Source: a bacterium M00.F.Ca.ET.205.01.1.1 (GTDB lineage Bacteria; Pseudomonadota; Alphaproteobacteria; Rhizobiales; Rhizobiaceae). Taken from it: DNA of 64,000 nucleotides. The position numbers were made by a program, and so were the translations under genes. The stretch spans positions 634,031 through 698,030 of the forward strand of contig SRUQ01000004.1 of the NCBI GenBank assembly GCA_004791255.1, read 5' to 3'. The stretch's first letter is position 1. Each line of letters begins with the position of its first letter. The notes beneath the pieces were generated by a model. It made no database searches, was not told where the DNA came from, and was given only the letters and a program-made list of their open reading frames with translations. Positions 9,401-63,458 of this stretch are shown here, one piece after another.

Positions 9401-9497
9401 CGGTCTTGGTCAGCACCACCAGCGCGCCGATGGCGCCCGCCACCGCGATCAGCAGCGTGTAGAAAACAATGCGAAGGATGCGCCGAACCGTCTTCAT
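3447..9497 (-). CDS. tamB: TamB, inner-membrane component of the translocation and assembly module
   Basis: TamB is a long periplasm-spanning protein anchored in the inner membrane. It works with TamA in outer-membrane protein assembly or envelope lipid transport. The 2016 residues start with a basic stretch and one membrane helix (about residues 8-30). A very long region of beta-rich repeats follows, and then the conserved C-terminal DUF490/TamB domain with LPEDEVLAQLIFGRS. The gene starts two bases after the tamA stop, so they are translationally coupled. It is much longer than the E. coli protein (about 1260 residues). The extra length comes largely from an internal duplication of about 625 residues, described separately. 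Confidence 0.93.
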   Translation of the reverse strand: MKTVRRILRIVFYTLLIAVAGAIGALVVLTKTERGRDNLAGIISRLASSDERKVTVSGIDGIWSGALSVDHVVLEDRNGAWLVARHVAVDWSPLALLSKNFNADRIAAGRIELARLPVASTQPSQGGATTLPVSIDIKQIDLPEIALGQQLAGSGIADLAAKGSVKADAAPLAVETVLNVTRHDGKQGNVDAKIHFAPADNRLDLDLKASEPAGGIIANLLKLPDAPPVDITVSGTGPLANWNGIATFTVDGKIVTQLTGRHQSTDKGSHVEAKGDGDFARFLPDNLKALFAGKTSFDVAGTATSAGGVSIDRASIESDAVHGTATGIADPAGASDLSVEIAAKGAPVQITVGSAAQPITLAIRNASARALGDGKTPIINIGASLASVVAGGTQLNDLSAQIHSDGFDIQNRAGPVAVKLAAGGLKTDVATLTPLITGKVDVDLTGSLSKDAISIDQGTLRSDALNASLTMTVALADLSMKLKMNADAVSTALPPQISAVLGERVKFSAAATRDPQGSFAANSISFTSGSLSASGTASAQGSGIQADIKGTLGDVSVLSPMVGVPVAGGVDFALSASGPRTAPDFTITADSDSLTASGRTVKAIKLTASGKADISSPSATVSLTGSVNDQPLDVKAALVTSEGKRSINGFLISLGDNKVSGDLALDDKFLPSGTLTLAASAIDQLAALAGQAVTGDINGTIAFGKDGETPSVAIDAKSTSVARGEVTANAIAVNALIANYLKAPAISGTIKADAVTSGSTEISGIGVDLKRDGDWTNFSGGATIAGIPATAAGRVRIAGGTTSVEIASGEATVRGIKAAIAAPSTLSIANGTTSIDSLALDVGGGAVTLSGTAGQTLDLTAKVSGLPAALANDFSPGLDAAGTLSGTAEVTGAPSAPDVRFDAQLADVETSQTRQAGLGALAVDAAGSYTISGGVVLDHATLSGDKISGQAAGTINPNGASDFALDLTSSGPSLPLTVGSAESPITIDVQSLSAKVAGESTKARLDVSAILPSISTSPAKVDGVAIALHSDAFDLKKRAGPVSGTVSVDKVGLDNAAIAPLIAGKVTAALNARLSADAVAIDSGSLKTDALNSQVAGTVSLKDGTIELKLNAGAPSSALPGAVRGVHGERAEISATLKRDPKGGIAVDGLTLVSGPLSAQGQASLADNKVAADITGALADISLLSKDAKGAIAFALNAQGPAMAPDLSLTVNSDRLLVASREINGLKLTATGKADAANPAANVQLTGNVAGQVLQGSAVLATADGKSAINGLLLSLGQNKISGDLALDEKFVPVGTISLDLPDIGPLAALALEKAEGDVRGTIAFSKSGAAPQVAIKAATGSIVRGDLRAKAVSVDALVANYLAAPVISGKVRADTVTSGGTVISGIDVDLKRAGDWTGFSGGATVKGVPAKAAGRVKVANGTTTIELASGEATVQGIKAAIAQASTVSIANGTTTLDRLVLNLGGGTATVTGKVGQALDINAVLARVPMSLANSFSPGLDAAGAISGTVKVTGAPASPAVAFNIDAAGVQTSQTRGAGLGVVNVSSSGSFAGNKLSFNANVSGGAGLGLKGGGTVTTAGTPALVLDFNGNVPFGLLADKLAAQGLSLTGTASVNVQVRGPATSPVVGGSVSTSGARLVDARSGLAVNDVAADVSIGGGVARINRLTGTLSTRGSLSASGTVGINPAQGFPADLAIKLTDGRYTDGRVVTANLGGDLTIKGPLASAPAIAGTINLAKTVVTVPDKLPGSLSALDVKHKNAPGAVRAQDKALRPATTSGKSGGSGLALDVIVNAPNQIFIQGRGVDAELGGSLRLTGPASSPQAVGTFTLQRGRLSILGKRLTFTEGTVGFSGSLVPYLNLTATTTTASATVTIVVSGEATNPKFTFSSVPALPEDEVLAQLIFGRSMSNLSPLQIAQLAEAAAQLAGVGGSTSLLENLRSAIGVDDLDVTTDDQGGTAVSAGKYLNDRTYVTIQKGDKPGSGKATIDLNVGRGVKLRGEATDAGEAKGGIFYEKEY
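4815..8560 (-). repeat. tandem internal duplication in tamB (two units of about 1.87 kb)
   Basis: Two consecutive protein blocks of about 625 residues align along their length: roughly residues 315-940 and 940-1560. Marker pairs include SPGLDAAGTLSG and SPGLDAAGAISG (about residues 872 and 1496), and GASDLSVEIAAKG and GASDFALDLTSSG (about residues 332 and 957). The offset between paired markers is constant at about 624-625 residues. Boundaries are approximate because they were read by eye. Confidence 0.8.
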
Positions 9498-9499
9498 CT

Positions 9500-11428
9500 C
9501 TAGAACGCCTGGCCAATGCCGGCATAGATGCCGAAATGCGGGTCGCCGGGGTCGCGGTTGAGTGGCACCGCGGCATCGATGCGCAATGGGCCGAACGGCG
9601 TCACATAACGCAAGCCGACGCCGGCGCCGACCTTGACGTCGGAAAAATTGGGAACAGACTCGGTCGACACCGAGCCGGCATCGACGAACGGCACGATGCC
9701 GATCGTGTCGGTGACGGCGATGCGCATTTCGACTGATGTTTCGAAGAAGGACAGGCCGCCGATCGGCTGGCCTGTAGGATCCTTGGGGCCGATGCCCTGA
9801 TAGGCATAGCCGCGCACCGAACCGCCGCCACCGGAATAGAAGCGCCGGTCGGCCGGAACGTTCTGGAGCCCCGTACCGACGATCGAGCCAACGGCGACGC
9901 GTTCGGCCAGCACGAATTTCGAGGCCGTGTCCAGCGACTGGTAGGCCGAGCCCTCGCCCTTCAGCTTGAGGAAGGCTGCACCATTCAATATGTCGTAGCT
10001 TGGCTCGGCATAGGCCAGCACCCGGAAGCCGCTGGTCGGGTTCAGCCTGCTGTCCCGGTTGTCATAGACATATTGCAGCGGAACGCTGGCGATCAGATAG
10101 GTGTGCTTGCCGAAGGCATCCGTGATCCTTGAATAGTCGAGCGCCACTTCCGCCGACACGGTCTGCTTCTTGGTCAGCTCATAGGAGAGGCCGGTGCTGC
10201 CCTTGATCGAGAAATGGTCGTAGGCGTCGGGGTGTTCCAACACCGTCTTGACGTTGACGAAGAATTTCGATGCCGGCCCGATCACGCCCGGTTTCTCGAA
10301 CATGATGCCGGCATTGTAGTTCAGCTCGGACAGGTCGTTGCTGCCGATGCCGCTGATGGCGCCCTCGATGCGCAGCTTCTCGGCCCTGCCGAACAGGTTG
10401 CGATGGCCCCAATAGCCTTCCAGCCCAAGGCCTTCCGTGTTGGAAAAGGTGCCGCCAAGCCCGAAATAGCGCGGCTTGCGCTCGCTGACCTGAACATCGA
10501 TCGGAATGTTGCCGTCGGCATCGAGCTTGTCGGCTTCCTTGAACGTTACGCTGTTGAACACTTCGAGCGCCAGCAGCCTGTCGCGCGCATCGCTGATCTC
10601 CTGCGGTGAGTATTGCCGGCCGCGCTTCAGCCCGGTCATGTATTCGGTGAAGTCGCGATCGACCTTTTCGGTGCCTTCCACCGTCGTCGCACCATATCCC
10701 GCGACCGGCCCGGCGGCGACCGTCAGCGTCACGTCGAGCGTCGAGGTGTTGTGGTCAGCGACGATCTGCCGGCCGGTCACCTCAGCCAGCGGCCTTCCCT
10801 GCTCTTTCAGCGTCCGCACGATCAGCGCCTCGGCCTTGAGCACGGCACCGGAACCGGCATCGCCACCTGATATCAGGCCGTAGTCGGCGCTCATCAGCCC
10901 GGCCGCGTCACCCTCCAGCCGGATGTTGCCGAGCGTGAATTTGGGGCCGGTGGCGACAGTGATCGCCACCGGGATCGGTTGCGGGCCTTTGAATTCGGCA
11001 TCGGGAGCCAGCTCATCGATCGGCTTGCCATCGATGGTGATGGTGACCACGCCTTCATAGCGGGCATCGGCGTAAAGCGCTGCGACCAGCTGCTCACGGT
11101 CGCCGCGCGCCTTGGCCATCAGTCCAAGCGAGCCGGACACCGGCCGGTCTTCGTCGCCCTTGAGCGACGAGGCGTTTTCCAGCTTCTTCATCAGCTCCTT
11201 GTCGGCGTCGGGAGCCGAGATGGTCACGGCATAGCGCAGCGGATCGACGATGTCGGCGTCCTCGTCGCTGGGCGATCCCCACAGCTTGATGCCGAAAATC
11301 TCGAAAGCGGCTGCCGGCTTTGATTCGGCGGCCAGCGCGGTAACGCACATCATGGCCAAAAGCAGGGCGCGCGGAAGAGCGCGCCCTGGCGCGTCCCCTC
11401 CTGACATCTGCTTTTCATGCGCCGGCAT
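9500..11428 (-). CDS. tamA: TamA, Omp85-family outer-membrane protein
   Basis: TamA is the outer-membrane half of the translocation and assembly module. The 642-residue protein has a signal peptide (LLLAMMCVTALAA region), N-terminal POTRA-type domains (about residues 50-300) and a C-terminal 16-strand beta-barrel of the bacterial surface antigen family. The barrel carries the GGSVRGY motif of the conserved L6 loop and ends in phenylalanine, as expected for BAM-inserted barrels. The ATG at 11428 is chosen; a TTG lies one codon upstream. It is the first gene of the tamA-tamB operon and is divergent from the alpha-2-macroglobulin gene across a 280-base gap. Confidence 0.92.
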   Translation of the reverse strand: MPAHEKQMSGGDAPGRALPRALLLAMMCVTALAAESKPAAAFEIFGIKLWGSPSDEDADIVDPLRYAVTISAPDADKELMKKLENASSLKGDEDRPVSGSLGLMAKARGDREQLVAALYADARYEGVVTITIDGKPIDELAPDAEFKGPQPIPVAITVATGPKFTLGNIRLEGDAAGLMSADYGLISGGDAGSGAVLKAEALIVRTLKEQGRPLAEVTGRQIVADHNTSTLDVTLTVAAGPVAGYGATTVEGTEKVDRDFTEYMTGLKRGRQYSPQEISDARDRLLALEVFNSVTFKEADKLDADGNIPIDVQVSERKPRYFGLGGTFSNTEGLGLEGYWGHRNLFGRAEKLRIEGAISGIGSNDLSELNYNAGIMFEKPGVIGPASKFFVNVKTVLEHPDAYDHFSIKGSTGLSYELTKKQTVSAEVALDYSRITDAFGKHTYLIASVPLQYVYDNRDSRLNPTSGFRVLAYAEPSYDILNGAAFLKLKGEGSAYQSLDTASKFVLAERVAVGSIVGTGLQNVPADRRFYSGGGGSVRGYAYQGIGPKDPTGQPIGGLSFFETSVEMRIAVTDTIGIVPFVDAGSVSTESVPNFSDVKVGAGVGLRYVTPFGPLRIDAAVPLNRDPGDPHFGIYAGIGQAF

Positions 11429-47694: not shown

Positions 47695-48471
47695 TTACCG
47701 GGACCTGATCACGCCGTCCGTGTTGGCAAGCAGCTTGCGCACCGCGGCACGCGCCGCGTCGGGCCGCTGCAGGCGGATGTTCTTCTCGATCGCCTCGTGC
47801 AGCTTCTGCGCATGGTTGAGATCGTCGACCTCGCGCGTCGTAAAGGCGAAGAGATGGTCGAAGGCGGATTCGATCAGCACGCCGAGCGGCACGAGCAGAT
47901 CGTTACCGGAGGCGCGCAGGATGGCGAGATGGAAGCGGGTGTCGGCGCGCGTGCGTTCCTGCAGGCTGGAAGCCTCGCCCATTTCGCGGCAGGCCTGGCT
48001 GATTTCGGCCATCTGCTCATCGGTCCGCCGTATGGCGGCGAAAGCGGTCGCTTCCGGCTCGATGATGTGGCGGAATTCCTGCACGGTCTTCAGGAACACC
48101 TCGCGATCCGGCGACGTCGCGTACCAGGCGAGCACGTCACGATCGAGCAGGTTCCAGCGCTCCTTGGGCTCGACCCAGCTGCCGATCTTGGGGCGCGATG
48201 CCAAAAGGCTCTTGGCCATCAGCATCTTGATCGCCTCGCGCACGGCCGAGCGGCTGACGCTGAAAGTTTCCGACCATTTGGCTTCGTTGGGCAGGATAGT
48301 GCCTGGCGGATAGTCGCCGCGCACGATCCTGAGACCAATCTCGCTTGCCAGCGACGTATGCACACTGGCGCCGGGAATGCGCGCCGCATCCGACCGGCGA
48401 ACACCAGCCTGGCGCTCAGTGGCTGCTGTTTTCCCCGGCGATTTTTCCTTGTTCGGCTTCGCGTCCCGCAT
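47695..48471 (-). CDS. FadR/GntR-family transcriptional regulator (paralogue 1)
   Basis: This 258-residue regulator has an N-terminal winged helix (LASEIGLRIVRGDYPPGTIL, SVSRSAVREAIKMLMAKSLL) and a C-terminal FCD effector domain with metal-binding His and Asp in TRFHLAILRASGND. The first 40 residues are a poorly conserved basic tail. It is nearly identical in the core to the gene at 50530-51312. Such regulators control uronate, galactonate or similar sugar-acid catabolism. It lies just upstream, on the same strand, of no obvious partner, but close to SDR and 3-HIBADH-like genes and to palindromic sites of the FadR type. Confidence 0.9.
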   Translation of the reverse strand: MRDAKPNKEKSPGKTAATERQAGVRRSDAARIPGASVHTSLASEIGLRIVRGDYPPGTILPNEAKWSETFSVSRSAVREAIKMLMAKSLLASRPKIGSWVEPKERWNLLDRDVLAWYATSPDREVFLKTVQEFRHIIEPEATAFAAIRRTDEQMAEISQACREMGEASSLQERTRADTRFHLAILRASGNDLLVPLGVLIESAFDHLFAFTTREVDDLNHAQKLHEAIEKNIRLQRPDAARAAVRKLLANTDGVIRSR

Positions 48472-50511: not shown

Positions 50512-50549
50512 TCGAACGGCGGGCCGGCCTTACCGCCGCGACCGTTCGA
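50512..50549. terminator. inverted repeat between convergent genes
   Basis: TCGAACGG (50512-50519) and CCGTTCGA (50542-50549) are perfect eight-base arms, with GCGG/CCGC pairing possible inside. The right arm overlaps the end of the regulator gene. It may terminate both convergent transcripts; no T-run is seen. Confidence 0.5.
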
Positions 50550-51312
50550 TAACCTCGTCGGTGTTGGCGAGCAATTTGTGCACCGCGCCTCTGGCGGCGA
50601 CCGGTCGTTGCAGGCGGATGTTCTTCTCTATGGCCTCATGCAGCGACTGGGCGCGCCGCTGGTCGCTGTGCTCGCGCGTGACGAAGACGAACAGATGGTC
50701 GAGGGCGGATTCGATCAGCACGCCGAGCGGCACCAGCAGATCGTTGCCCGAGGCCCTGAGGATGGCGAGATGGAAGCGCGTGTCGGCGCGCGTGCGCTCC
50801 TGCAGGTTTGTCGCCGCCCCCATCTCGCGGCAGGCCTGGCTGATCTCCGCCATCTGCTCGTCGCTGCGCCGTATGGCGGCAAAGGCGGACGCTTCCGGCT
50901 CGATGATGTGGCGGAACTCCTGCACCGTGCGCAGGAACACTTCGCGGTCGGGCGAGGTCGCGTACCAGGCGAGCACGTCGCGATCGAGCAGGTTCCAGCG
51001 TTCCCTGGGCTCGACCCAGCTGCCGATCTTGGGACGCGAGGCAAGCAGGCTCTTGGCCATCAGCATCTTGATAGCCTCACGCACCGCCGAGCGACTGACG
51101 TTGAAGGTTTCCGACCATTTGGCTTCGTTGGGCAGGATTGTGCCCGGCGGATAGTCGCCGCGCACGATCCTGAGGCCGATTTCACCGGCCAGCGAGGCAT
51201 GCACGCTCGATCCTGGGTTCCACGCCATTTCAGGCCGGCGAACAGTGGCGGCAGGCGGGCTGGGCGGCGCTTCAACCCCAGCGGATCGCTTTCTAGACTT
51301 GTCGTCCGGCAT
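50530..51312 (-). CDS. FadR/GntR-family transcriptional regulator (paralogue 2)
   Basis: This 260-residue regulator is almost the same as the one at 47695-48471 across the whole HTH and FCD domains, differing mainly in the N-terminal tail and in a short segment near residue 220 (TREHSDQRRAQ versus TREVDDLNHAQ). The HTH contains NVSRSAVREAIKMLMAKSLL and the effector domain TRFHLAILRASGND. The gap upstream holds several TTGTC/TGTCC half-sites, which may point to autoregulation. It lies between the 3-HIBADH-like gene and a sugar-binding protein gene. Confidence 0.9.
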   Translation of the reverse strand: MPDDKSRKRSAGVEAPPSPPAATVRRPEMAWNPGSSVHASLAGEIGLRIVRGDYPPGTILPNEAKWSETFNVSRSAVREAIKMLMAKSLLASRPKIGSWVEPRERWNLLDRDVLAWYATSPDREVFLRTVQEFRHIIEPEASAFAAIRRSDEQMAEISQACREMGAATNLQERTRADTRFHLAILRASGNDLLVPLGVLIESALDHLFVFVTREHSDQRRAQSLHEAIEKNIRLQRPVAARGAVHKLLANTDEVIERSRR

Positions 51313-54784: not shown

Positions 54785-54828
54785 GGCGCTGCTCTCATGT
54801 ATTTGGCACGAGGGCAGCGCCGGTTTTT
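54785..54828 (+). terminator. Rho-independent terminator after the third sugar permease gene
   Basis: GGCGCTGCTCTC (54785-54796) pairs with GAGGGCAGCGCC (54810-54821) through one G-U wobble, with a 13-base loop, followed by GGTTTTT. This is a well-formed intrinsic terminator. An open frame upstream of the AraC start begins inside it, which supports the later AraC start at 54998. Confidence 0.85.
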
Positions 54829-54997
54829 CGAGCCCCAGGCGCTGTGCCGCCGCCTCCTATCGCTCAGTCTGAAAATCCGCCGGCTCGCCGTGTCGGGCAA
54901 GCCTGCCGCGAGCCAGCGCCTTGACGTGCGGCCGCACTCGGCCGCACAATCCCCATGCAGGCGAAGGGAGGCCAGTCGCCTGCGGGAGGATATACCC

Positions 54998-55825
54998 ATG
55001 ACGGAAGCGATCAGGCTCTATTGGGGCCGGTTCGGACATGTTTCTGTCCTGAATGTCGCGAGCGACTTCGTCACCCATGCCCATGTCGAGGCGCATCTCA
55101 TCATCTGGCTGGAAGGCACCGCCGGCGAAATGACCATCGGCCGGGAGACGGTCCGGCTCGGGCCGGGATTCGCCGCCGGCATCAACTCGCTACAGCCGCA
55201 CAGCCATGTCCTGTCACATGACGGCAGGCCGGGGCTGTTCCTCGCCTTCTACATCGATCCGGACTGGGCGCGACGGCGCCGCGACCTGCCTTCCACCGCG
55301 CCGCTGTTTGCACAGGCTGCCATCACGCTCGAGCCGTGGCTGCATCAGGCCGCTGCCGGCCTGCTCGACCATCTGACCGACAATGAGAGCATCGACGACG
55401 TCGCCAATTACGAGATCGAACGGTTCATCGACTCGATGCTCGACGCCGCCGACGCCTCGGCGCCGCAGGAAGGCCGCGTCCGTATCCACACCATGCAGGA
55501 TTTCCGTGTCCGCAAGGCGATCCAGCTGATGAAGGCCAATGTCTGCGAGCGAATTTCCTTCGACGATGTCGCCCGCAGCGTCGGCCTGTCGCGGCCGCAC
55601 TTCTTCGCTCTGTTCAAGGAACAGACCAACCTGACGCCCAATGTCTATTGGAACACACTGCGCATGGAGGAGGCGGTGCGGCAATTGCAGTGGTCCGAGG
55701 CACCGCTGATTTCCGTCGCCTGCAATCTCGGCTTCACCACGCAGGGCAATTTCTCGCGCTTCTTCCGCGACCATGTCGGCGTGCCGCCGACGCTCTATCG
55801 CGAGGCGGCGCGGGCAACGGCCTGA
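54998..55825 (+). CDS. AraC-family transcriptional regulator
   Basis: This 275-residue regulator has an N-terminal cupin-like effector domain (THAHVEAHLIIWLEGT) and a C-terminal pair of HTH motifs (ISFDDVARSVGLSRPHFFALFK and LISVACNLGFTTQGNFSRFFRD). The start at 54998 has GGGAGGA seven bases upstream; open frame before it runs into the terminator of the previous operon. The molybdenum-hydroxylase operon starts 122 bases downstream, with AraC-style direct repeats in between, so this regulator probably controls it. Confidence 0.9.
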   Translation: MTEAIRLYWGRFGHVSVLNVASDFVTHAHVEAHLIIWLEGTAGEMTIGRETVRLGPGFAAGINSLQPHSHVLSHDGRPGLFLAFYIDPDWARRRRDLPSTAPLFAQAAITLEPWLHQAAAGLLDHLTDNESIDDVANYEIERFIDSMLDAADASAPQEGRVRIHTMQDFRVRKAIQLMKANVCERISFDDVARSVGLSRPHFFALFKEQTNLTPNVYWNTLRMEEAVRQLQWSEAPLISVACNLGFTTQGNFSRFFRDHVGVPPTLYREAARATA

Positions 55826-55864: not shown

Positions 55865-55908
55865 ATTGATACGCGGCCAAGACGCATTGATAAGCGTGGA
55901 CGCGGCCA
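55865..55908 (+). promoter_or_regulatory. candidate AraC-type direct-repeat operator
   Basis: The ten-base unit ATTGATA(C/A)GC occurs at 55865-55874 and 55886-55895, 21 bases apart (two helical turns). ACGCGGCCA also repeats at 55871-55879 and 55900-55908. Direct half-sites 21 bases apart are the usual target form of AraC regulators. They lie about 55-80 bases before the SRPBCC gene that begins the operon. Confidence 0.6.
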
Positions 55909-55947
55909 CCGTCCTACCCTTGCTGCGAAGAAGATTTGCAAGGGGAC

Positions 55948-56397
55948 ATGGATATGCCGAAAGTCACCATCTCCAGCGTCATCGACGCGCCGGTCGAACA
56001 AGTCTGGGCGCGCATACGCGACTTCGACGGTCTGCCGGGCTGGCACCCACGCATGGTGGAGAGCCATATCGAAGACGGCAAGGACGCCACCACCATCGGC
56101 TGCGTGCGCAACTTCCAGCTCATCAGCGGCGCCCGCCTGCGCGAAGAACTACTCGACTTCTCCGACGACAATTTCCTCGTCAGCTATTCCATCCTGGAAA
56201 CGCCGCAGCCGATCACCAATCACAAGGCGACGCTGCAGTTGCGGCGCGTCACCGACGGCAACCGCACCTACGGCGAATGGACCGCCAGCTTCGACGCCGC
56301 GCCTGAGGAGGCCGACAAGCTGGCCGAAGGCATGGGCACCAATGTCTTCCAGGGCGGTTTCAACGCGCTGAAAAGCCATTTCGCCGGCCAGAACTGA
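55948..56397 (+). CDS. SRPBCC/START-domain protein (polyketide cyclase-like)
   Basis: This 149-residue small protein has the SRPBCC helix-grip fold: VTISSVIDAPVEQVWARIRDFDGLPGWHP at the start, then strand repeats. The ATG at 55948 has AAGGGG upstream; an in-frame TTG four codons before it is not used. It is the first gene of the molybdenum-hydroxylase operon. The fold can bind hydrophobic ligands, and in related operons similar proteins assist Mo-enzyme attachment or ligand handling. Its precise role is unknown. Confidence 0.8.
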   Translation: MDMPKVTISSVIDAPVEQVWARIRDFDGLPGWHPRMVESHIEDGKDATTIGCVRNFQLISGARLREELLDFSDDNFLVSYSILETPQPITNHKATLQLRRVTDGNRTYGEWTASFDAAPEEADKLAEGMGTNVFQGGFNALKSHFAGQN

Positions 56398-56418
56398 GCC
56401 GCAACGCGGGAGCGTGCC

Positions 56419-57213
56419 ATGGCATTAGCACTGCAGACTTTTGCGACGGTGAAGGACGCCAATGCGGCCCTGAAGATAGAGGGCACGCGCTACCTCGGCG
56501 GCGGCACGCTGGTGGTGCGCGCCGCCAATGAGGGCGACGTTTCGGTTTTCAGCCTGGTCAGGTCGATCGATCCGGCCCTTTCAACCATCGAGGTCGGCGA
56601 CGCCAAGGTCCGTATCGGCGCCTCGGTGACCATGGCCGCGATTACTCGCCATCCCGATCTCGGCGCCCTCGCCAAGGCGGCGCGCGCCGTTGGCGGGCCG
56701 GCCATCCGCAACATGGCAACCGTCGGCGGCAATTTGTTCGCGCCCGCCCCTTACGGTGATTTCGCCGTCGCCTTGCTGGCGCTGGACGCGAGTGTCGACA
56801 CCGGCAAAGGCGAATTGCCACTCGAAACCTTCCTCGCCGGACGTGACGAGACCCGCGCCCTCGTCACTTCGGTAAGCTTCACACCGCCGAAGACCGACAG
56901 CTTGCGCTTCCTCAAAGTGTCGCGGGTCAAACCCAAGGGTGTCTCTGTGCTGAGCATCGCCGCCGTGCTCGAACAGGCCGCCGACGGCACCATAGGCTCG
57001 GCGCGGATCGCGCTTGGCTGCCTGGCCGACCGGCCGATGCGCGCGGTAGCCGCCGAGAAAGCACTGATCGGCCGAAGCCTGACCAGGGACGGCATCGCAG
57101 CGGCGCTGGCCGCTGCCAGCGAAGGCACCTCGCCGATCACCGATCCGATCGCCAGCGCCTGGTATCGCGCCGAAGTTCTGCCGGTCCATCTCGGCCGGCT
57201 GCTGCTGAGCTGA
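56419..57213 (+). CDS. molybdenum hydroxylase FAD-binding subunit (CoxM/XdhB-like)
   Basis: This is the 264-residue medium subunit that binds FAD and passes electrons to the acceptor. It has the FAD motifs YLGGGTLVVRA and GGPAIRNMATVGGNLFAPAPYGD, the typical pyrophosphate-binding region of the xanthine dehydrogenase family, and the C-terminal CO-dehydrogenase flavoprotein domain. It follows the SRPBCC gene by 21 bases. The full operon (FAD, FeS and two parts of the Mo subunit) shows it is part of a three-cofactor hydroxylase. Confidence 0.92.
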   Translation: MALALQTFATVKDANAALKIEGTRYLGGGTLVVRAANEGDVSVFSLVRSIDPALSTIEVGDAKVRIGASVTMAAITRHPDLGALAKAARAVGGPAIRNMATVGGNLFAPAPYGDFAVALLALDASVDTGKGELPLETFLAGRDETRALVTSVSFTPPKTDSLRFLKVSRVKPKGVSVLSIAAVLEQAADGTIGSARIALGCLADRPMRAVAAEKALIGRSLTRDGIAAALAAASEGTSPITDPIASAWYRAEVLPVHLGRLLLS

Positions 57214-57277
57214 AAGAACAACCCGCGGGAGGGCGCGCGTCTGTCCGATCCCTCGGGCAGGCGCGCAAGGAGGAAGA

Positions 57278-57760
57278 ATGGCAAAGGTTCCAGTCCAGTT
57301 CACACTCAACGGCTCCGAAAAAGCCGAATTCATCGACAGCGGCACGACGCTGCTCAACGCCCTCCGCGACAAGATCGGCGACACTTCGCCGAAGGGCGGC
57401 TGTCATCAGGGCACCTGCGGTGCCTGCTCGGTCATCGTCGACGGTGAACTCAGGCTCTCCTGCCTGACGCTGGCCGAAACCTGCAACGGCGCTTCGATCA
57501 CCACCACGTCGGGCCTTGCAGACGGCGGCGTGCTGCATACGCTGCAGCGCGCCTTCCTCGACACCTTCGCCACGCAATGCGGCTTCTGCTCGCCGGGCAT
57601 GATCATTGCCGCCAAGGTGCTGCTCGACCACACGCCCAACCCCAGCCGTGAGGAAGTCGTCGAGGCGCTGTCGGGCAACATCTGCCGCTGCACCGGCTAT
57701 GAGCCGATCATCCAGGCAGTGCTGACCGCCGCCCGCTCCAATTCGCAGAACGCAGCCTGA
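57278..57760 (+). CDS. molybdenum hydroxylase [2Fe-2S] subunit (CoxS/XdhC-like)
   Basis: This 160-residue small subunit carries two [2Fe-2S] clusters. The plant-type cluster motif is GGCHQGTCGACSVIVDG with a later SC cysteine. The second cluster uses QCGFCSPGM and NICRCTGYEPI. Both sets of cysteines are complete. It shuttles electrons between the molybdenum site and FAD. It sits 64 bases after the FAD gene and 11 bases before the large-subunit gene. Confidence 0.94.
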   Translation: MAKVPVQFTLNGSEKAEFIDSGTTLLNALRDKIGDTSPKGGCHQGTCGACSVIVDGELRLSCLTLAETCNGASITTTSGLADGGVLHTLQRAFLDTFATQCGFCSPGMIIAAKVLLDHTPNPSREEVVEALSGNICRCTGYEPIIQAVLTAARSNSQNAA

Positions 57761-57771
57761 GGACCAGAAGA

Positions 57772-59139
57772 ATGGAACTGCGGAAGAACTACTTCGCCGA
57801 TGTGCGCAAGGACGACCTCCACGAGATCGGCCAGCCGCGCGCCCGGCTCGATTCGCCGGGCCATGTCACCGGCAAGACCGCCTATTTCGCCGACCGCAAT
57901 TTTCCCGGCATGCTGCATCTGAAGATGGTGCGCAGCCCGCACCATCACGCCCGCATCCGCTCGATCGACACTTCCGATGCGGAAAAACATCCGGGAGTGC
58001 TGAAAATCCTCACCGCCAGGGACGTGCCGCACAACGTCTACACCATCCTGATCCTGATCCAGGTCGGCCCCGAGGACGAGACAGTGTTGGCCGACGGCAA
58101 GGTACGCTGGAAGGGCGAGGCCGTGGTCGCGGTGCTGGCCGAGACCGAGCGCGCGGCGCAGGAAGCCGCAGCCAAGGTCAAGGTCGACTACGAGGTCCTA
58201 CCGGCCGTCCTCGACATGGAAGAAGCGCTGAAGCCCGGCGCGCCGATCGTCAATGAATATCACGGCCAGAACTATTATCTCTACGACAGCGGCGAGTGCC
58301 GCAAGGTGCGCTTCGGCGATGTCGAGGCAGGCTTTGCTGGCGCCGACCACATCCTGGAACAGAGCTACCAGTCCTCGCCCATCGAGCACGCCCCGACCGA
58401 GACGACGGGCTGTGTGGTGGTGCCCGAGCCCAATGACCGCTTCACCTGCTACACCAACACGCAGGCGATGTTCTTCACGTTGGACAACTCCTCCATCATC
58501 CTGCAGATGCCGGGCTCGAAGCTGCATTTCGTCGGCGGCACCGTCGGCGGCGGTTTCGGCGGCAAGGTCGACGTCATCGTCGAGCCGATCGCCATCCTCG
58601 GCGCTAAGCTCACCGGACGCCCGGTATCCTTCATCTACAGCCGCGAGGAAGAGATGCAGATCTCCTCGCCCCGCGCCGCCGAAAAAGTCATCATCAAGGA
58701 CGGCGTCATGAAGGATGGCCGCATCGTCGCTCGGAAGGTCACCGGCTATACCGACGCCGGCGCCTATTCGCGCCACTCGCCTTACGGAGCGCAGAAAGGG
58801 GCCGCGCACTATCCCGGTCCCTACACGATCCCGAATGTGTGGATCGACACCTACTGCGTTTACACCAACCGTACCCCCTCCTCCGCCATGCGCGGCTTCG
58901 GCGTCACCATCGGCGACTTCGCGCTGGAGGTGCAGATGGACAAGCTGGCGCGGCTGATCGGGATGGATCCGCTCGAGTTCCGCTTCATCAACGCCTATCG
59001 CGACGGGGACATGAAGGCGCATCGCCAGCCGACGGAAGGGGCGGCACTCATCGAATGCATGCAGGAGGCTTCGCGCGCCGCCAACTGGCCGGTGGCGGAG
59101 AAATACATGGCGATGTCCTCCTACGCGAAGGGAGCTTGA
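57772..59139 (+). CDS. molybdenum hydroxylase large subunit, N-terminal half (CoxL/XdhA-like)
   Basis: This 455-residue protein is the first part of the molybdopterin-binding large subunit. It has the N-terminal ald_Xan_dh_C region (GKTAYFADRNFPGMLHLKMV), the glycine motif VGGGFGGKVDV (about residues 257-267) and AMRGFGVTIGDFALE (about 373-387), all cofactor-contacting parts. It lacks the AYRCSFR active-site loop of aerobic CO dehydrogenase, so it is not a form-I CODH. The protein ends where normal homologues continue. The next gene supplies the missing half, one base after the stop. Confidence 0.88.
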   Translation: MELRKNYFADVRKDDLHEIGQPRARLDSPGHVTGKTAYFADRNFPGMLHLKMVRSPHHHARIRSIDTSDAEKHPGVLKILTARDVPHNVYTILILIQVGPEDETVLADGKVRWKGEAVVAVLAETERAAQEAAAKVKVDYEVLPAVLDMEEALKPGAPIVNEYHGQNYYLYDSGECRKVRFGDVEAGFAGADHILEQSYQSSPIEHAPTETTGCVVVPEPNDRFTCYTNTQAMFFTLDNSSIILQMPGSKLHFVGGTVGGGFGGKVDVIVEPIAILGAKLTGRPVSFIYSREEEMQISSPRAAEKVIIKDGVMKDGRIVARKVTGYTDAGAYSRHSPYGAQKGAAHYPGPYTIPNVWIDTYCVYTNRTPSSAMRGFGVTIGDFALEVQMDKLARLIGMDPLEFRFINAYRDGDMKAHRQPTEGAALIECMQEASRAANWPVAEKYMAMSSYAKGA

Positions 59140-59140
59140 G

Positions 59141-60145
59141 ATGGCGATCAGGCGCGGACGCGGCGTCGCCGCAATTAACTATCCGACCGGCATGAACCTC
59201 GGCGGCGACCCGACGCAGGCGCTGGTCCACTCGACGCCGACCGGCAATTTCATGGTGACATTGTCGTCCGTCGATCTCGGCCAGGGCATGAAGCAGATCA
59301 TGGCGCAGATCTGCGCCGAGGCCATCGGCGTGCCGACCGACCGCGTCGTCGTCGACACCGCCGACACCGACACCGGCCCGCACTGCATGGGCACCTTCGC
59401 CTCGCGCGGCACCCACCGCGCCGGCAACGCCGTCATCCAGGCTGCCAGGGAAGCCCGCCAGGTGATGCTCGAGGTGGCGGCCGAGGAACTGGAAGTGAAC
59501 GCTTCCGACCTCGAGACCGACGGCCAGGGCAACATACTGGTCAAGGGCGCGCCGCAAAAGTCGATCTCGATCTTCGACGTCGCGCTGTCGGCGCATTTCA
59601 AGCGCGGCCGCTCGATCTCGGGCCGCGGCATGTTCCTGATCCCGCGTTCCTATCCCGAGAAAGAAACCGGAGCGATGAAGCCATCGACCTGCTACGCGCA
59701 TGCCTGCACCGTGGCCGAGGTCGAGGTCGACGACGAGACCGGCGAAGTGACGGTGCTGAACGTCAAGAACGTCTTCGAGATCGGCCGCGCCCTGAACCCG
59801 AAGATGGTCGAGCAGCAACTCGTCGGCGGCTCGTGGATGGGCATCAGCCACGCGCTCTATGAGACGACAGAGCCTTACTACCCCAACCGCGACCATGGCG
59901 GCACCGACTTCAACCAGTATCTGATGCCGGGGCCGGGTGACCTTGCCCAGACCGAGATCATCGTGCTGGAGCGGCCTTCCGCTGATGGGCCTTACGGCGC
60001 CAAGGGACCGGGCGAGATGTGCGCCAATCCGCAGATACCGGCGGTGGCCAACGCCGTCTTCGACGCGGTCGGCGTGCGCATCGACACGCTGCCGATCACG
60101 CCGGAACGCATCCTGCGCGCGCTCAAGGCGCAAGCCGCGAACTGA
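59141..60145 (+). CDS. molybdenum hydroxylase large subunit, C-terminal half (CoxL/XdhA-like)
   Basis: This 334-residue protein is the second half of the molybdopterin-binding subunit. It begins with RGRGVAAINYPTGMNLGG and carries VDLGQGMKQIMAQ, and ends with GAKGPGEMCANPQIPAVANAV, which holds the catalytic glutamate (about residue 289). The start codon has AAGGGAG six bases upstream, placed inside the end of the preceding gene, so it is likely translated as a separate chain. The +1 frame shift between the halves could also be a sequencing error or a mutation, but the ribosome site argues for a natural split. Confidence 0.87.
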   Translation: MAIRRGRGVAAINYPTGMNLGGDPTQALVHSTPTGNFMVTLSSVDLGQGMKQIMAQICAEAIGVPTDRVVVDTADTDTGPHCMGTFASRGTHRAGNAVIQAAREARQVMLEVAAEELEVNASDLETDGQGNILVKGAPQKSISIFDVALSAHFKRGRSISGRGMFLIPRSYPEKETGAMKPSTCYAHACTVAEVEVDDETGEVTVLNVKNVFEIGRALNPKMVEQQLVGGSWMGISHALYETTEPYYPNRDHGGTDFNQYLMPGPGDLAQTEIIVLERPSADGPYGAKGPGEMCANPQIPAVANAVFDAVGVRIDTLPITPERILRALKAQAAN

Positions 60146-60154
60146 GTGGCCGCG

Positions 60155-61036
60155 ATGACCCGCGCTGACGCCGACCAGGTCGCGGCTTCGCCGGAAGCCG
60201 TGGCGGCGCGCCTTGCCACCTCGCGCTATCTGGCCGACGACAGCCTCGCGACCGCTATCTTCCTGGCGATCCACTTGGGCAAACCACTGCTGCTCGAAGG
60301 TGCGCCGGGCGTCGGCAAGACGGAAGCAGCAAAGGCGATTGCCGAGTTGCTCGGACGCGATCTGGTGCGGCTGCAATGCTATGAAGGCATCGATGCCGCG
60401 CACGCGCTCTACGAATGGAATTACCAGCGCCAGTTGCTCGCCATCCGCCATGCCGGCGACCAGGAAGTCGACATCTACGACGACCGCTTTTTGATCGCGC
60501 GGCCGCTGCTGCAAGTGCTGCGGGCGCCACAGCAGCGCGTGCTTCTGGTCGACGAGATCGACCGTTCCGACCATGAATTCGAAGCGCTGCTCCTGGAATT
60601 CCTCTCCGATTTCCAGATCAGCATTCCCGAACGCGGCACCATCCGCGCCGAAGCACTGCCGATCGTCATCCTGACCTCCAACCGCACCCGCGAACTGGCC
60701 GAAGCGCTGCGCCGCCGCTGCGTCTACCACTGGATCGGCTATCCCGATGCCGAACGCGAGGCGGAGATCATCATGCTGCGCGCCAGCGATGTGGCGCAGA
60801 CGACGGCGCGCGCCGTGGCGTCCGCCGTGCAGGCCATCCGCGCCCGCCCGCTCGCCAAGCCGCCAGGGATCGCCGAGGCGGTCGAATGGGCCAATGCCGC
60901 GACCATCCTGGAAAGAGGCGGCAGTCCCTGGCCGGAAGCCTTCCGCCGCGCCATCGGCGTACTGATCAAGGACGAGGAGGACCTCTCCTACATCGCGCCA
61001 GAACTCGGCCGCATCGTCGAAGAGGCGCTGGGGTGA
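60155..61036 (+). CDS. MoxR-type AAA+ ATPase (CoxD-like)
   Basis: This 293-residue AAA+ ATPase has Walker A GAPGVGKTEAAKA (about residues 48-60), Walker B RVLLVDEIDRSD, sensor ILTSNRTREL and an arginine-rich C-terminal lid. MoxR-type ATPases work as chaperones that insert metals or activate enzymes, usually with a VWA partner; CoxD helps mature CO dehydrogenase. The ATG at 60155 is used; a GTG three codons upstream is possible. The VWA gene follows with a four-base overlap. Confidence 0.9.
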   Translation: MTRADADQVAASPEAVAARLATSRYLADDSLATAIFLAIHLGKPLLLEGAPGVGKTEAAKAIAELLGRDLVRLQCYEGIDAAHALYEWNYQRQLLAIRHAGDQEVDIYDDRFLIARPLLQVLRAPQQRVLLVDEIDRSDHEFEALLLEFLSDFQISIPERGTIRAEALPIVILTSNRTRELAEALRRRCVYHWIGYPDAEREAEIIMLRASDVAQTTARAVASAVQAIRARPLAKPPGIAEAVEWANAATILERGGSPWPEAFRRAIGVLIKDEEDLSYIAPELGRIVEEALG

Positions 61037-62160
61037 GCGCGTTACCTCGCGAGGCTGCCCCATTCCTCGGCTTCGGCCGGCTGCTGCGCCGATACGGCTT
61101 CGCCATCGCCCCCGAACAGGTCACCGGATTCATGCAGGCGGTGACTCTGCTTGGGCCGCGCTCGATGAATGACATCCGCGAAGCTGCCCTTGCCACGCTG
61201 GCGCCGCCGCCTGATCGCCGTGCCGAATTCGAGGCGCATTTCCAAAGCCATTTCTACGGCAACACGTCGGCCGTGAGCGCAAGCGAGGCGGACGAGGAAA
61301 CGCGCATCAAGGATGATGGCGGTGCCGACGACGAGCAAATCAAAGCCGAGCACAGCCGAGAAGGCGGTGAGCTGTCTTCGGCCCTGGAGCAGCTGAGCAC
61401 CCGAGACTTCCAGCGCAACGACAACGGCTTGACGGCCTTTCGCCGAAAACTGTCGGCCGCCCTACCCGCGCGCCGATCCTTCCGCACCGTGCACACCCAT
61501 TCGCGCGGCAAGCTCGACCTGCGCCGGTCGCTCAGGGAAATCGTCAGTGCCGATGGCGATATCCCTTCGCCGCTGCTGCGCCGCCGCCAGACCGTGCCGC
61601 GCAAGCTGCTCATTCTCATCGACGTGTCCGGCTCGATGAAGTTACACACGGCTGATTATCTCAAACTGGCGCATGCAGCGGTGCAAGGCACGGATCGCGC
61701 CGAGATATTCACCTTCGGCACGCGGCTCACCCGCATTACCACGGCACTGCGCATCCGCGACCGTGACCGGGCGCTGGCGCGGGCGTCAGCGCAGGTCGAT
61801 GACTGGGACGGCGGCACCCGCATGGGACCGACATTGCTCGCCTTCCTGTCGGTGCCGCGTTTTTCCGCCTTCGCGCGCGGGGCGGCGGTCGTCATCCTGT
61901 CCGACGCGCTGGAGCGCGGTGGCCATGCCGAAATGGAGACCGCCATGCGGCGGCTAAGCGCCCGCGCCTTCCGGCTGTCGCTGGCGACGCCGCTGGCCGG
62001 CGATCCGCGCTTCCGCCCTGTGACGGCGGCGCTCAGCGCCATCCTGCCCGTACTCGACGATCTGGTCGACGGCTCGTCAGTAAAAGGCCTCACCGATTTC
62101 ATCCTGTCGCTCGCCCGCCCTGCGCCAGCGGCCAAGACCATCTGGAAAAGGGTATCGTGA
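61033..62160 (+). CDS. VWA-domain protein (CoxE-like)
   Basis: This 375-residue protein has a helical N-terminal region, an acidic middle (about residues 75-120) and a C-terminal VWA domain with the MIDAS motif LIDVSGSMK (about residues 195-203). It is the usual partner of a MoxR ATPase, as CoxE is of CoxD. The start is a GTG overlapping the ATPase stop by four bases (GTGA). The pair probably supports maturation or metal insertion of the molybdenum hydroxylase encoded upstream. The stop overlaps the next gene (TGATG). Confidence 0.9.
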   Translation: MSALPREAAPFLGFGRLLRRYGFAIAPEQVTGFMQAVTLLGPRSMNDIREAALATLAPPPDRRAEFEAHFQSHFYGNTSAVSASEADEETRIKDDGGADDEQIKAEHSREGGELSSALEQLSTRDFQRNDNGLTAFRRKLSAALPARRSFRTVHTHSRGKLDLRRSLREIVSADGDIPSPLLRRRQTVPRKLLILIDVSGSMKLHTADYLKLAHAAVQGTDRAEIFTFGTRLTRITTALRIRDRDRALARASAQVDDWDGGTRMGPTLLAFLSVPRFSAFARGAAVVILSDALERGGHAEMETAMRRLSARAFRLSLATPLAGDPRFRPVTAALSAILPVLDDLVDGSSVKGLTDFILSLARPAPAAKTIWKRVS

Positions 62161-63047
62161 TGCAGAAAGCCATCGACTCGCATTTCCACATCTGGCGCCA
62201 AAAGGATCAGCCCTGGCTTGTCGGCCCCATGGTGCCGCGTATCTTCGGCCCCTACGAGCCTATCCGCCGCGACTACCCGATCACGGAGTTCCTCGAAGAC
62301 CAGAAAGGCGCCGGCGTCGAAAAATCAGTCTATGTCCAGACCAACTGGGCGAAGGAGGATTTCGAAAAGGAAGTCGCCTTCCTGCAAAAGACAGCTGACG
62401 AAACCGGCTGGCCGCACGCCATCGTCGGCTATGCCGACATGACGGTCGACGATGTCAGACCACAGATCGACCGGCTGATGAAATACCGCCTGCTGCGCGG
62501 CGTGCGCATGCAACTGCATTGGCATGAGACGCCGGCCTTCCGCTTCGCCGCCTCGGCCGATCAGGTGATCGATCCCAAGGTCCGCGCCAATATCGCGAGG
62601 TTGAAGGATTATGGGTTGTCCTTCGACCTGCAGCTTTTCCCTGCCCAGATGAAGGACGGGCTGACGCTGGTCGGCGAAAACCCGCAAACCAATTTCATCC
62701 TTACCCATGCCGGCATGCTGACCGGCATGGAGCCGGAAACCACCGAAGCCTGGAAAACCGGCCTGCGCACGCTGGCGGCGGCACCGAATTTCTACGCCAA
62801 GCTCTCCGGCCTCGGCACCTTTGTCCACCGCAACGACCCTGCGCTGATTGCCTACATCGTCGACAATGCGATTGATATTCTGGGCTCGGAACACCTGATG
62901 TTCGGCTCTAACTTCCCGATCGAGAAGCTGTGGACCAGCCATGCCGAACTGATCAAAGCGCACCGCGACGCAGTAGCGAAACACGGCGCGGCGGCAGAGG
63001 CGGATATCTTCTGGAATACGGCGGATAAGGTGTATCGGCCGGTGTGA
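62160..63047 (+). CDS. amidohydrolase family protein (LigI/lactonase-like, COG3618)
   Basis: This 295-residue TIM-barrel hydrolase of the amidohydrolase superfamily is close to the LigI and L-fuconolactonase/rhamnonolactonase group. It has the N-terminal HFHIW motif, YVQTNWAKEDFEKEV, TNFILTHAGM and MFGSNFPIEKLW, where many relatives have an aspartate. The ATG at 62160 overlaps the VWA stop by one base; GTG at 62157 is the alternative. It is the last gene of the Mo-hydroxylase operon, so a lactone or carboxylic ring formed by oxidation may be its substrate. This is an inference. Confidence 0.85.
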   Translation: MQKAIDSHFHIWRQKDQPWLVGPMVPRIFGPYEPIRRDYPITEFLEDQKGAGVEKSVYVQTNWAKEDFEKEVAFLQKTADETGWPHAIVGYADMTVDDVRPQIDRLMKYRLLRGVRMQLHWHETPAFRFAASADQVIDPKVRANIARLKDYGLSFDLQLFPAQMKDGLTLVGENPQTNFILTHAGMLTGMEPETTEAWKTGLRTLAAAPNFYAKLSGLGTFVHRNDPALIAYIVDNAIDILGSEHLMFGSNFPIEKLWTSHAELIKAHRDAVAKHGAAAEADIFWNTADKVYRPV

Positions 63048-63050
63048 AGC

Positions 63051-63458
63051 TCACTTCACCTCGAACTGCGGATCGACCGGAATCTGCATCGCCGTGACCA
63101 GATGGTTGGTCTGGCCAGCCAACCCGATGATCGACACCAGTTCGCCATGCTGGACATCGGTCATGCCCTTGGCCCGCGCCGCCGCCGTATGCGAGTGGAC
63201 GCAGTACGAACAGCCATTGGCGGTCGATACCGCGATATAGATCATTTCCTTGGTCAGTGGATCGATGGCGCTGTCGGCGACCATAACCGTCTTCAACTGT
63301 TCCCATGTCCGCTTCAGCGAGGCCGGATCGTTCGCCAGCCCGCGCCAGAAATTGTTGACGAAATCCGATTTGCGCGTCGCCCTGATATCGTCGAACACGG
63401 CCTTCACCGCCGGGATCTTTTCGACCTCGGCATCGCTCAGGAGTTTTGTGGTGGCCAT
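63051..63458 (-). CDS. carboxymuconolactone decarboxylase (AhpD-like) family protein
   Basis: This 135-residue all-helical protein has the CxxC pair in STANGCSYCVHSHTAAARAKG, the active-site motif of AhpD-type peroxidase-related proteins. The C-terminal part contains GLAGQTNHLVTAMQIPVD. Its function may be in peroxide or alkylhydroperoxide defence; true carboxymuconolactone decarboxylation is unlikely with a CxxC. It is convergent with the amidohydrolase gene (3-base gap) and separate from that operon. Confidence 0.87.
   Translation of the reverse strand: MATTKLLSDAEVEKIPAVKAVFDDIRATRKSDFVNNFWRGLANDPASLKRTWEQLKTVMVADSAIDPLTKEMIYIAVSTANGCSYCVHSHTAAARAKGMTDVQHGELVSIIGLAGQTNHLVTAMQIPVDPQFEVK

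Follow-up and report, generated by a model that had tools for sequence, protein, structure and literature searches.

Is the molybdenum (Mo)-binding large subunit of a hydroxylase really made as two polypeptides when its coding region is found in two adjacent frames, and if so, what enzyme do the two halves form? This question is raised by an operon in a stretch of 64,000 nucleotides (the window) from the Rhizobiaceae bacterium M00.F.Ca.ET.205.01.1.1 (contig SRUQ01000004.1, positions 634,031 to 698,030). The operon (55948-63047, + strand) encodes, in order, an SRPBCC protein, a flavin adenine dinucleotide (FAD) subunit, a 2Fe-2S subunit, the N- and C-terminal halves of the large subunit (here MoN and MoC), a MoxR-class ATPase, a von Willebrand factor type A (VWA) protein and an amidohydrolase-fold protein, with an AraC-type regulator upstream; the intergenic spacings along it are 21, 64, 11, 1, 0, -4 and -1 bp. 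The domain set of a xanthine-oxidase-family Mo hydroxylase is complete (FAD, 2Fe-2S, Ald_Xan_dh_C, MoCoBD_1 and MoCoBD_2, all above the Pfam cut-offs). The reading that accounts best for the locus, to which we give a probability of roughly 0.7, is a hydroxylase of this family with four kinds of chain (FAD, 2Fe-2S, MoN and MoC), coupled translation of the two Mo chains and maturation by the MoxR-VWA pair; the enzyme is probably cytoplasmic.

Two genes for one molybdenum subunit

MoN ends with a TGA codon at 59137-59139 and, after a single base, MoC begins with ATG at 59141 in a different frame. The AAGGGAG motif that the initial annotation placed before the second half-gene is indeed there (59128-59134), six bases upstream of the MoC ATG. 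Relatives share this junction. Of 264 places encoding a MoC relative, the best 80 were kept as a Mesorhizobium-type set (78 carry the name Mesorhizobium in their titles and two only Rhizobiales or Hyphomicrobiales); all 80 have an ATG start for MoC and a stop codon one base upstream, and 78 have at least 4 letters of AGGAGG within 16 nt of the MoC start (a count made without a chance control). A wider junction set comprised 43 further genomes or records (L111-L142 and L159-L169), which may overlap with the genomes of the 80; its analysis also took in 16 longer stretches from these genomes; the weak locus L170 was set aside. The two-gene form is present in all 43 as well, including the actinobacterium Nonomuraea and the archaeon Salinigranum, and no fused MoN-MoC gene of the family was found among the 80 kept loci and these 43 genomes or records. 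The initial annotation had asked whether related genomes carry the same split, and they do. In L131 and L132 the contig begins within the MoN tail, with the remainder of MoN outside the record.

The distance between the halves varies. In the wider relatives it is 0, 1, 2, 3, 4, -1 or -8 bp, which covers all frames, and such a changing frame relation speaks against programmed frameshifting or one conserved recoding signal. In six of the 43 (L121, L122, L124, L130, L135 and L136) the halves lie 582 to 1147 bp apart with a whole gene of another family between them, an EamA transporter gene in four and a GFA gene in two; in three of the six, longer stretches show MoN on the upstream side of the EamA gene (only partially in L210, at a contig end). 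A seventh genome, G100, likewise has EamA between MoN and MoC (totals, EamA 5 and GFA 2), and these seven are all of the genus code g61 genomes that match MoC in an order-wide survey. With an unrelated gene between them, the halves cannot be one chain there. The earlier suggestion that two chains are made separately is thus supported by both the spacing and the intervening genes, and the split is genuine, not an assembly or sequencing error. A recent frameshift, a sequencing error, a pseudogene or a programmed frameshift yielding a single chain, which two frames 1 bp apart might have suggested, is ruled out by the conserved two-gene form, the variable spacing and the intervening genes, and can for all practical purposes be set aside.

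The family is common near the window and scattered farther away. Besides the genome under study (hereafter the own genome), it is present in 29 of 36 same-genus relatives (E < 1e-200); MoC matches occur order-wide in 43 of 249 genomes, from 19 of 111 genera (E < 1e-100), and phylum-wide in 17 of 398, a count that includes the own genome (E < 1e-55). One of these 17, G578 (41% identity), does not belong to the family and has a fused enzyme. At 62-92% identity, further members come from plasmid-collection records of Sinorhizobium, Shinella, Yoonia, the actinobacterium Nonomuraea and the haloarchaeon Salinigranum. The split is thus old, being common to these soil bacteria, an actinobacterium and an archaeon. 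Three single records may be mentioned here. In Sinorhizobium sp. BG8 (L138) the MoN frame is broken, by a pseudogene mutation or a sequencing error. The Yoonia locus (L140) has no listed 2Fe-2S gene, yet frames matching the 2Fe-2S subunit are present at about 6673-7154. On a Haloterrigena plasmid (L198, 1947-8907), Mo hydroxylase genes lie beside yqeB, selD and DsrE-type sulfur carriers; this archaeal gene set likely encodes a selenium-dependent Mo hydroxylase.

The active-site residues are distributed over both products. MoN Gln231, Lys265 and Arg374 occupy family active-site positions; MoN Arg374 and the catalytic MoC Glu292 are present in all 29 family rows of the alignment, and MoN Gln231 in 28 (the other has an X). 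We take the catalytic Glu and the Gln, placed by motif, to be equivalent to Glu1261 and Gln767 of the bovine enzyme. MoC Gln48 is also present in 29/29 rows. Because the catalytic residues are split over MoN and MoC, both chains are needed, and together they would form the Mo active site. Translation of MoC would be coupled to termination at the MoN stop, which should give roughly equal amounts of the two chains, assembling around the cofactor. The family shows that dividing a Mo catalytic subunit at one given linker is a stable and widely kept design.

The MoxR-VWA pair and its possible role in maturation

The two genes that follow MoC have the features of the CoxD/CoxE pair of aerobic carbon monoxide (CO) dehydrogenase, a MoxR AAA+ protein with Walker motifs adjoining a VWA_CoxE protein with a metal ion-dependent adhesion site (MIDAS). 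Their context was compared in 28 family loci (each 19-19.5 kb, apart from one of 11.5 kb) and nine other Mo-hydroxylase loci (L184 and L188-L195). MoxR and VWA each have a match in 26 of the 28 family loci and in none of the nine others, where a match means similarity to the window's own proteins and distant versions may be missed. The own genome has eight MoCoBD_2 loci and five VWA_CoxE matches, and the two occur together at the window operon only (1/8). The CoxDE-like pair reported by the initial annotation is thus present and, by gene order, dedicated to this operon. In CO dehydrogenase, CoxD is reported to help sulfurate the Mo site and CoxE and CoxF to act in the copper step, whereas CoxG is reportedly dispensable for the cluster (PMC4240915). 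By analogy with CoxD and CoxE, the MoxR ATPase and VWA protein of the window would sulfurate the enzyme or insert its Mo cofactor.

Several points weigh against the joint reading, in addition to the possible oversight of distant MoxR-VWA versions. In two family loci, that of Salinigranum (L142) and that of G154 (L157), nothing nearby matches MoxR-VWA, which means that the pair either is not strictly needed or acts in trans; the G154 genome has other VWA_CoxE proteins, and the Salinigranum plasmid has none. L190 is split yet has no such match nearby. Two XdhC_CoxI proteins encoded elsewhere in the own genome could mature the enzyme instead; XdhC proteins are described as the usual chaperones of this enzyme family (PMC2997495). 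CoxE of carboxidotrophs is tied to the copper step (PMC4240915), which is not expected for this enzyme. Finally, the enzyme, its activity and its cofactor are predictions from the genes, and the substrate is a low-certainty guess from residues and neighboring genes.

The same observations bear on the alternative that the MoxR-VWA pair does something else, for instance in a process linked to the membrane or to flotillin, and is no more than a companion of the operon. The two family loci of 28 where the pair is missing, the split nicotinate-dehydrogenase-type locus L190 without it and the availability of XdhC_CoxI proteins in trans would all be in keeping with this, but the pair lies directly 3' of MoC, at spacings of 0 and -4 bp, and is kept from alphaproteobacteria to Nonomuraea, and we regard such a passenger role as rather unlikely. 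MoxR has weak sequence matches to CbbQ and NorQ structures and stronger short ones to midasin, and PADLOC gave only weak AAA+ matches for MoxR and none for VWA. MadB and MadC were rejected as names, the scores being below the curated NCBIfam cut-offs (266.8 versus 475 bits and 79.8 versus 600), and no paper combining three of the terms MadB, MadC, MoxR and VWA was found in the literature. Elsewhere in the own genome (G000:C177:553669-554734) a CoxE-like VWA gene lies beside XdhC_CoxI, and the nearest MoCoBD_2 on that contig is ~134 kb away.

Comparison with nicotinate and CO dehydrogenases

Among solved structures, the best match of MoN is NdhL of nicotinate dehydrogenase (3hrd_A; 5.7e-66, residues 15-436 to 4-414) and that of MoC is NdhM (3hrd_B; 7.2e-50, residues 4-331 to 3-328). 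A review describes these as two Mo-binding chains of 50 and 37 kDa (PMC10331938). The cut point is at the same linker in MoN/MoC and in NdhL/NdhM, between MoCoBD_1 and MoCoBD_2. The split is therefore not a novelty in itself, since Eubacterium barkeri NdhL/NdhM already provided an example of a Mo subunit divided at this linker, and what is new here is a separate family with its own old split and a MoxR-VWA pair alongside. No description of this split family was found in the literature, in a partial search that is not proof of absence.

In a tree of 46 rows, all 29 family rows, all of them split, form one clade with support of 100/100, and in a second tree of 38 rows, which includes five more fused enzymes, 19 of 19 family rows do so with the same support. 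(The first tree omits L138, with MoN in two frames, L188 and L189, with broken frames, and L176, a copy of the window; the second omits 13 further rows, which are near copies and the very long L171.) 3HRD groups away from the window clade, with L190 and with fused enzymes that lie beside 6-hydroxynicotinate reductase. L190 itself (G053:C9, about 7405-10457) has a 2Fe-2S domain fused to the N half and a separate C half with an ATGA overlap. A single clade of all split rows is disfavored (approximately unbiased test, p 0.019; p 0.010 without L190), where the split label denotes gene structure, the one-clade tests were post hoc, run once the trees were known, and the trees contain long branches. 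These trees suggest that two origins of the split are likely, so that division of a Mo subunit at this linker is probably a repeated event; a single old split followed by fusions is a possible alternative.

The four-chain make-up and the best solved matches of both Mo chains could suggest that the window operon encodes a true nicotinate dehydrogenase, the same NdhFSLM enzyme as in E. barkeri. The two do resemble each other in having FAD, 2Fe-2S and two Mo chains with catalytic residues on both. They differ in that the window family is a separate clade, has MoxR-VWA alongside and lacks a nearby 6-hydroxynicotinate reductase, and in having AMRGFG where Ndh has AFRGFG and Val where Ndh has Leu at the assumed Glu802-equivalent discussed below. 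Among the 126 sources searched, no 6-hydroxynicotinate reductase match lies in the window or the family loci; matches occur at L188, L194 and L173, the last two being one own-genome gene. There (L194, G000:C110, 7773-12286) the own genome has a separate nicotinate-type enzyme, with a fused 2Fe-2S + Mo subunit, beside a protein that shares 67% identity with an annotated 6-hydroxynicotinate reductase, and this region likely encodes a nicotinate pathway. With that enzyme present and no such reductase near the operon, nicotinate is unlikely as the substrate. Nicotinate dehydrogenase proper is ruled out by the position of 3HRD outside the window clade, the rejection of a single split clade and the gene context, and we consider this identity very unlikely. 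The best fused solved match for both halves, 4-hydroxybenzoyl-CoA reductase (1RM6), shares the Met before the active-site Arg; unlike the window family, it has a fused large subunit and falls in another clade.

The CoxD-, CoxE- and CoxG-like proteins within one operon also recall an aerobic CO dehydrogenase-like enzyme, whose Cu-S-Mo site would be built by CoxD and CoxE. As beside Oligotropha CoxMSL with its CoxDEFG, genes for a MoxR ATPase, a CoxE-like VWA protein and an SRPBCC protein accompany the Mo hydroxylase; unlike CoxMSL, the window enzyme has a split large subunit, no Cys loop and no XdhC_CoxI match near the operon. The initial annotation had stated that the loop typical of the form-I enzyme is absent, and this is borne out: the window has AMRGFG (Ala372 to Gly377, invariant in 24/24, with Met-Arg-Gly in 29/29 rows) where the CO dehydrogenase row 8UEM has AYACSFR. 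A loop list covering several enzymes, in a paper on Kdh, gives AFRGFG for NdhL and AYRCSF for CO dehydrogenase (PMC8305194). Since the loop with the Cu-binding Cys is missing, CO dehydrogenase is ruled out and no copper is expected; 8UEM lies in a different clade, the two own-genome XdhC_CoxI matches are on other contigs, and an enzyme of this kind is highly improbable here. The hydroxylase of the window family thus offers a setting without the copper-binding loop for asking what CoxD/CoxE-type MoxR-VWA pairs do. Should the pair prove necessary for this enzyme, its main task would be to sulfurate Mo or insert the cofactor, not to load copper.

Substrate, C-terminal tail and surrounding genes

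In all 29 rows, the site taken as Glu802 of xanthine dehydrogenase, a residue whose role we presume, is Val, and a purine substrate was rejected on that basis. The missing Cys loop and this Val together mean that neither CO nor purine is expected. A match in the Phe914 region (His417) is uncertainly aligned and was not relied on. With low certainty, the substrate would be heterocyclic or aromatic, though none of purine, CO and nicotinate; the hydroxylated product would pass to the amidohydrolase-fold protein encoded at the end of the operon. A model of that protein (mean predicted local distance difference test score 89.1) is most similar to COG3618 lactonases (4dlf, Z 31.2, root mean square deviation 2.4, 274 aligned). 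It shares the fold and the HxH motif with these enzymes (4DLF, L-fuconolactonase-like, and LigI, 4D8L) but differs from them at their beta-8 Asp, which we take to be the catalytic residue: at the aligned position all 27 sequences compared, that of the window among them, have Asn (Asn252 in the window protein, counted from 62157). A solved relative, 6UVZ, which has no assigned function, also has Asn at this position, and the window protein scores 97.2 of the 400 bits of the NCBIfam cut-off for lactonase. The replacement of Asp by Asn makes a plain lactonase doubtful, and a simple lactonase is disfavored. The lactone or ring-acid product proposed by the initial annotation therefore keeps the support of the lactonase fold, but the idea is weak. 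In the wider clade the neighboring genes encode a metallo-beta-lactamase fold protein, UPF0261, PEP_hydrolase, flotillin and an SMP-30 lactonase-like domain fused to an isochorismatase-like domain; as a guess, three hydrolase types around a Mo hydroxylase would fit opening of a heterocyclic ring.

The MoN chain of the window is tailless, whereas in a sister clade, a large one within the Alphaproteobacteria, MoN has 72-163 extra residues that are Pro-rich and end in RF(S/A)SxxGxRRR or a close variant. The 19 tailed loci (L139, L140, L145-L153, L155, L156, L158-L160, L162, L186 and L187) form one clade with support of 100/100 in the tree of 46 rows. Among the MoN ends in the 43 further genomes or records, 29 have the strict pattern, two have RFISGxRRR, one has RRR only and 11 lack it. 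A flotillin gene is present in 19/19 tailed loci versus 0/9 tailless ones; because the tailed loci form one clade, this link counts as one event. Flotillin has no match in the 64-kb window and was not found in the 80 kept Mesorhizobium-type loci, whose flanks are at most 6 kb and in some cases cut by contig ends. The RRR end overlaps in part the MoC ribosome site (AGG AGG CGC TGA). In L149-L151, which have another gene between the halves, RRR is kept, and in L149 and L150 its codons are AGG CGG CGG or CGG CGG AGG, which break the AGGAGG; the peptide itself thus seems to be conserved. We suggest, as a speculation that is more doubtful than not, that the split frees a chain end at the linker and that the tail docks the enzyme or a half-assembled form on flotillin or on MoxR-VWA, with maturation at a membrane microdomain; the window's tailless enzyme would then be the simpler form. 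If this were true, a molybdenum hydroxylase tethered in this way and linked to flotillin would represent a new arrangement, and the tail-plus-flotillin clade suggests recruitment of some molybdenum hydroxylases to a membrane scaffold. A partial literature search, which is not proof of absence, found no flotillin-linked Mo hydroxylase.

The features of the locus are collected in Table 1. The genes named by the initial annotation are all present at or near their given positions, and the SRPBCC gene had been overlooked. Domain assignments are from Pfam; the VWA and hydrolase frames were scored from likely starts, and scanning VWA from 60886 or 61033 gave the same outcome. An SRPBCC match is present in 22 of the 28 family loci. 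The AraC-type regulator likelier starts at ATG 54998 than at the listed start, as judged by reading its translation. Its gene adjoins the operon in most Mesorhizobium-type loci with enough flank; among the 28 family loci it has a match in L138 and L185 and none in the other 26.

Table 1. Coordinates in the window of the operon, its likely regulator and the MoC ribosome site
Feature	Position	Strand	Evidence
AraC-family regulator, likely operon regulator	54797-55825 (listed open reading frame)	+	HTH_18 1.4e-19, HTH_AraC 3.5e-9
SRPBCC protein, CoxG-like by superfamily	55948-56397	+	Polyketide_cyc2 PF10604 1.4e-24
FAD subunit	56419-57213	+	FAD_binding_5 2.1e-24, CO_deh_flav_C 2.8e-17
[2Fe-2S] subunit, nine Cys	57278-57760	+	Fer2_2 7.7e-29, Fer2 7.9e-7
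MoN, N-terminal half of Mo large subunit, 455 amino acids	57772-59139	+	Ald_Xan_dh_C 7.4e-33, MoCoBD_1 2.2e-69
Shine-Dalgarno-like AAGGGAG, within MoN 3' end, upstream of MoC start	59128-59134	+	sequence
MoC, C-terminal half of Mo large subunit, 334 amino acids	59141-60145	+	MoCoBD_2 1.7e-60
MoxR-class AAA+ ATPase, CoxD-like	60146-61036	+	AAA_5 1.7e-12; Walker A GAPGVGKT, Walker B VLLVDEID
CoxE-like VWA protein, MIDAS DVSGS	61033-62160	+	VWA_CoxE PF05762 1.1e-43
Amidohydro_2 protein, COG3618 lactonase fold	62160 (or 62157)-63047	+	PF04909 1.2e-35

Two features lie outside the operon. An AhpD/CMD-family gene on the minus strand (63051-63458) is convergent with the operon and ends beside it; it was detected in only part of the Mesorhizobium-type loci, some of which have short flanks. 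Farther upstream, two near-alike minus-strand regulators, of the GntR/FCD type by eye (47695-48471 and 50530-51312), flank a dehydrogenase and an epimerase-like gene, an arrangement that looks like a duplication.

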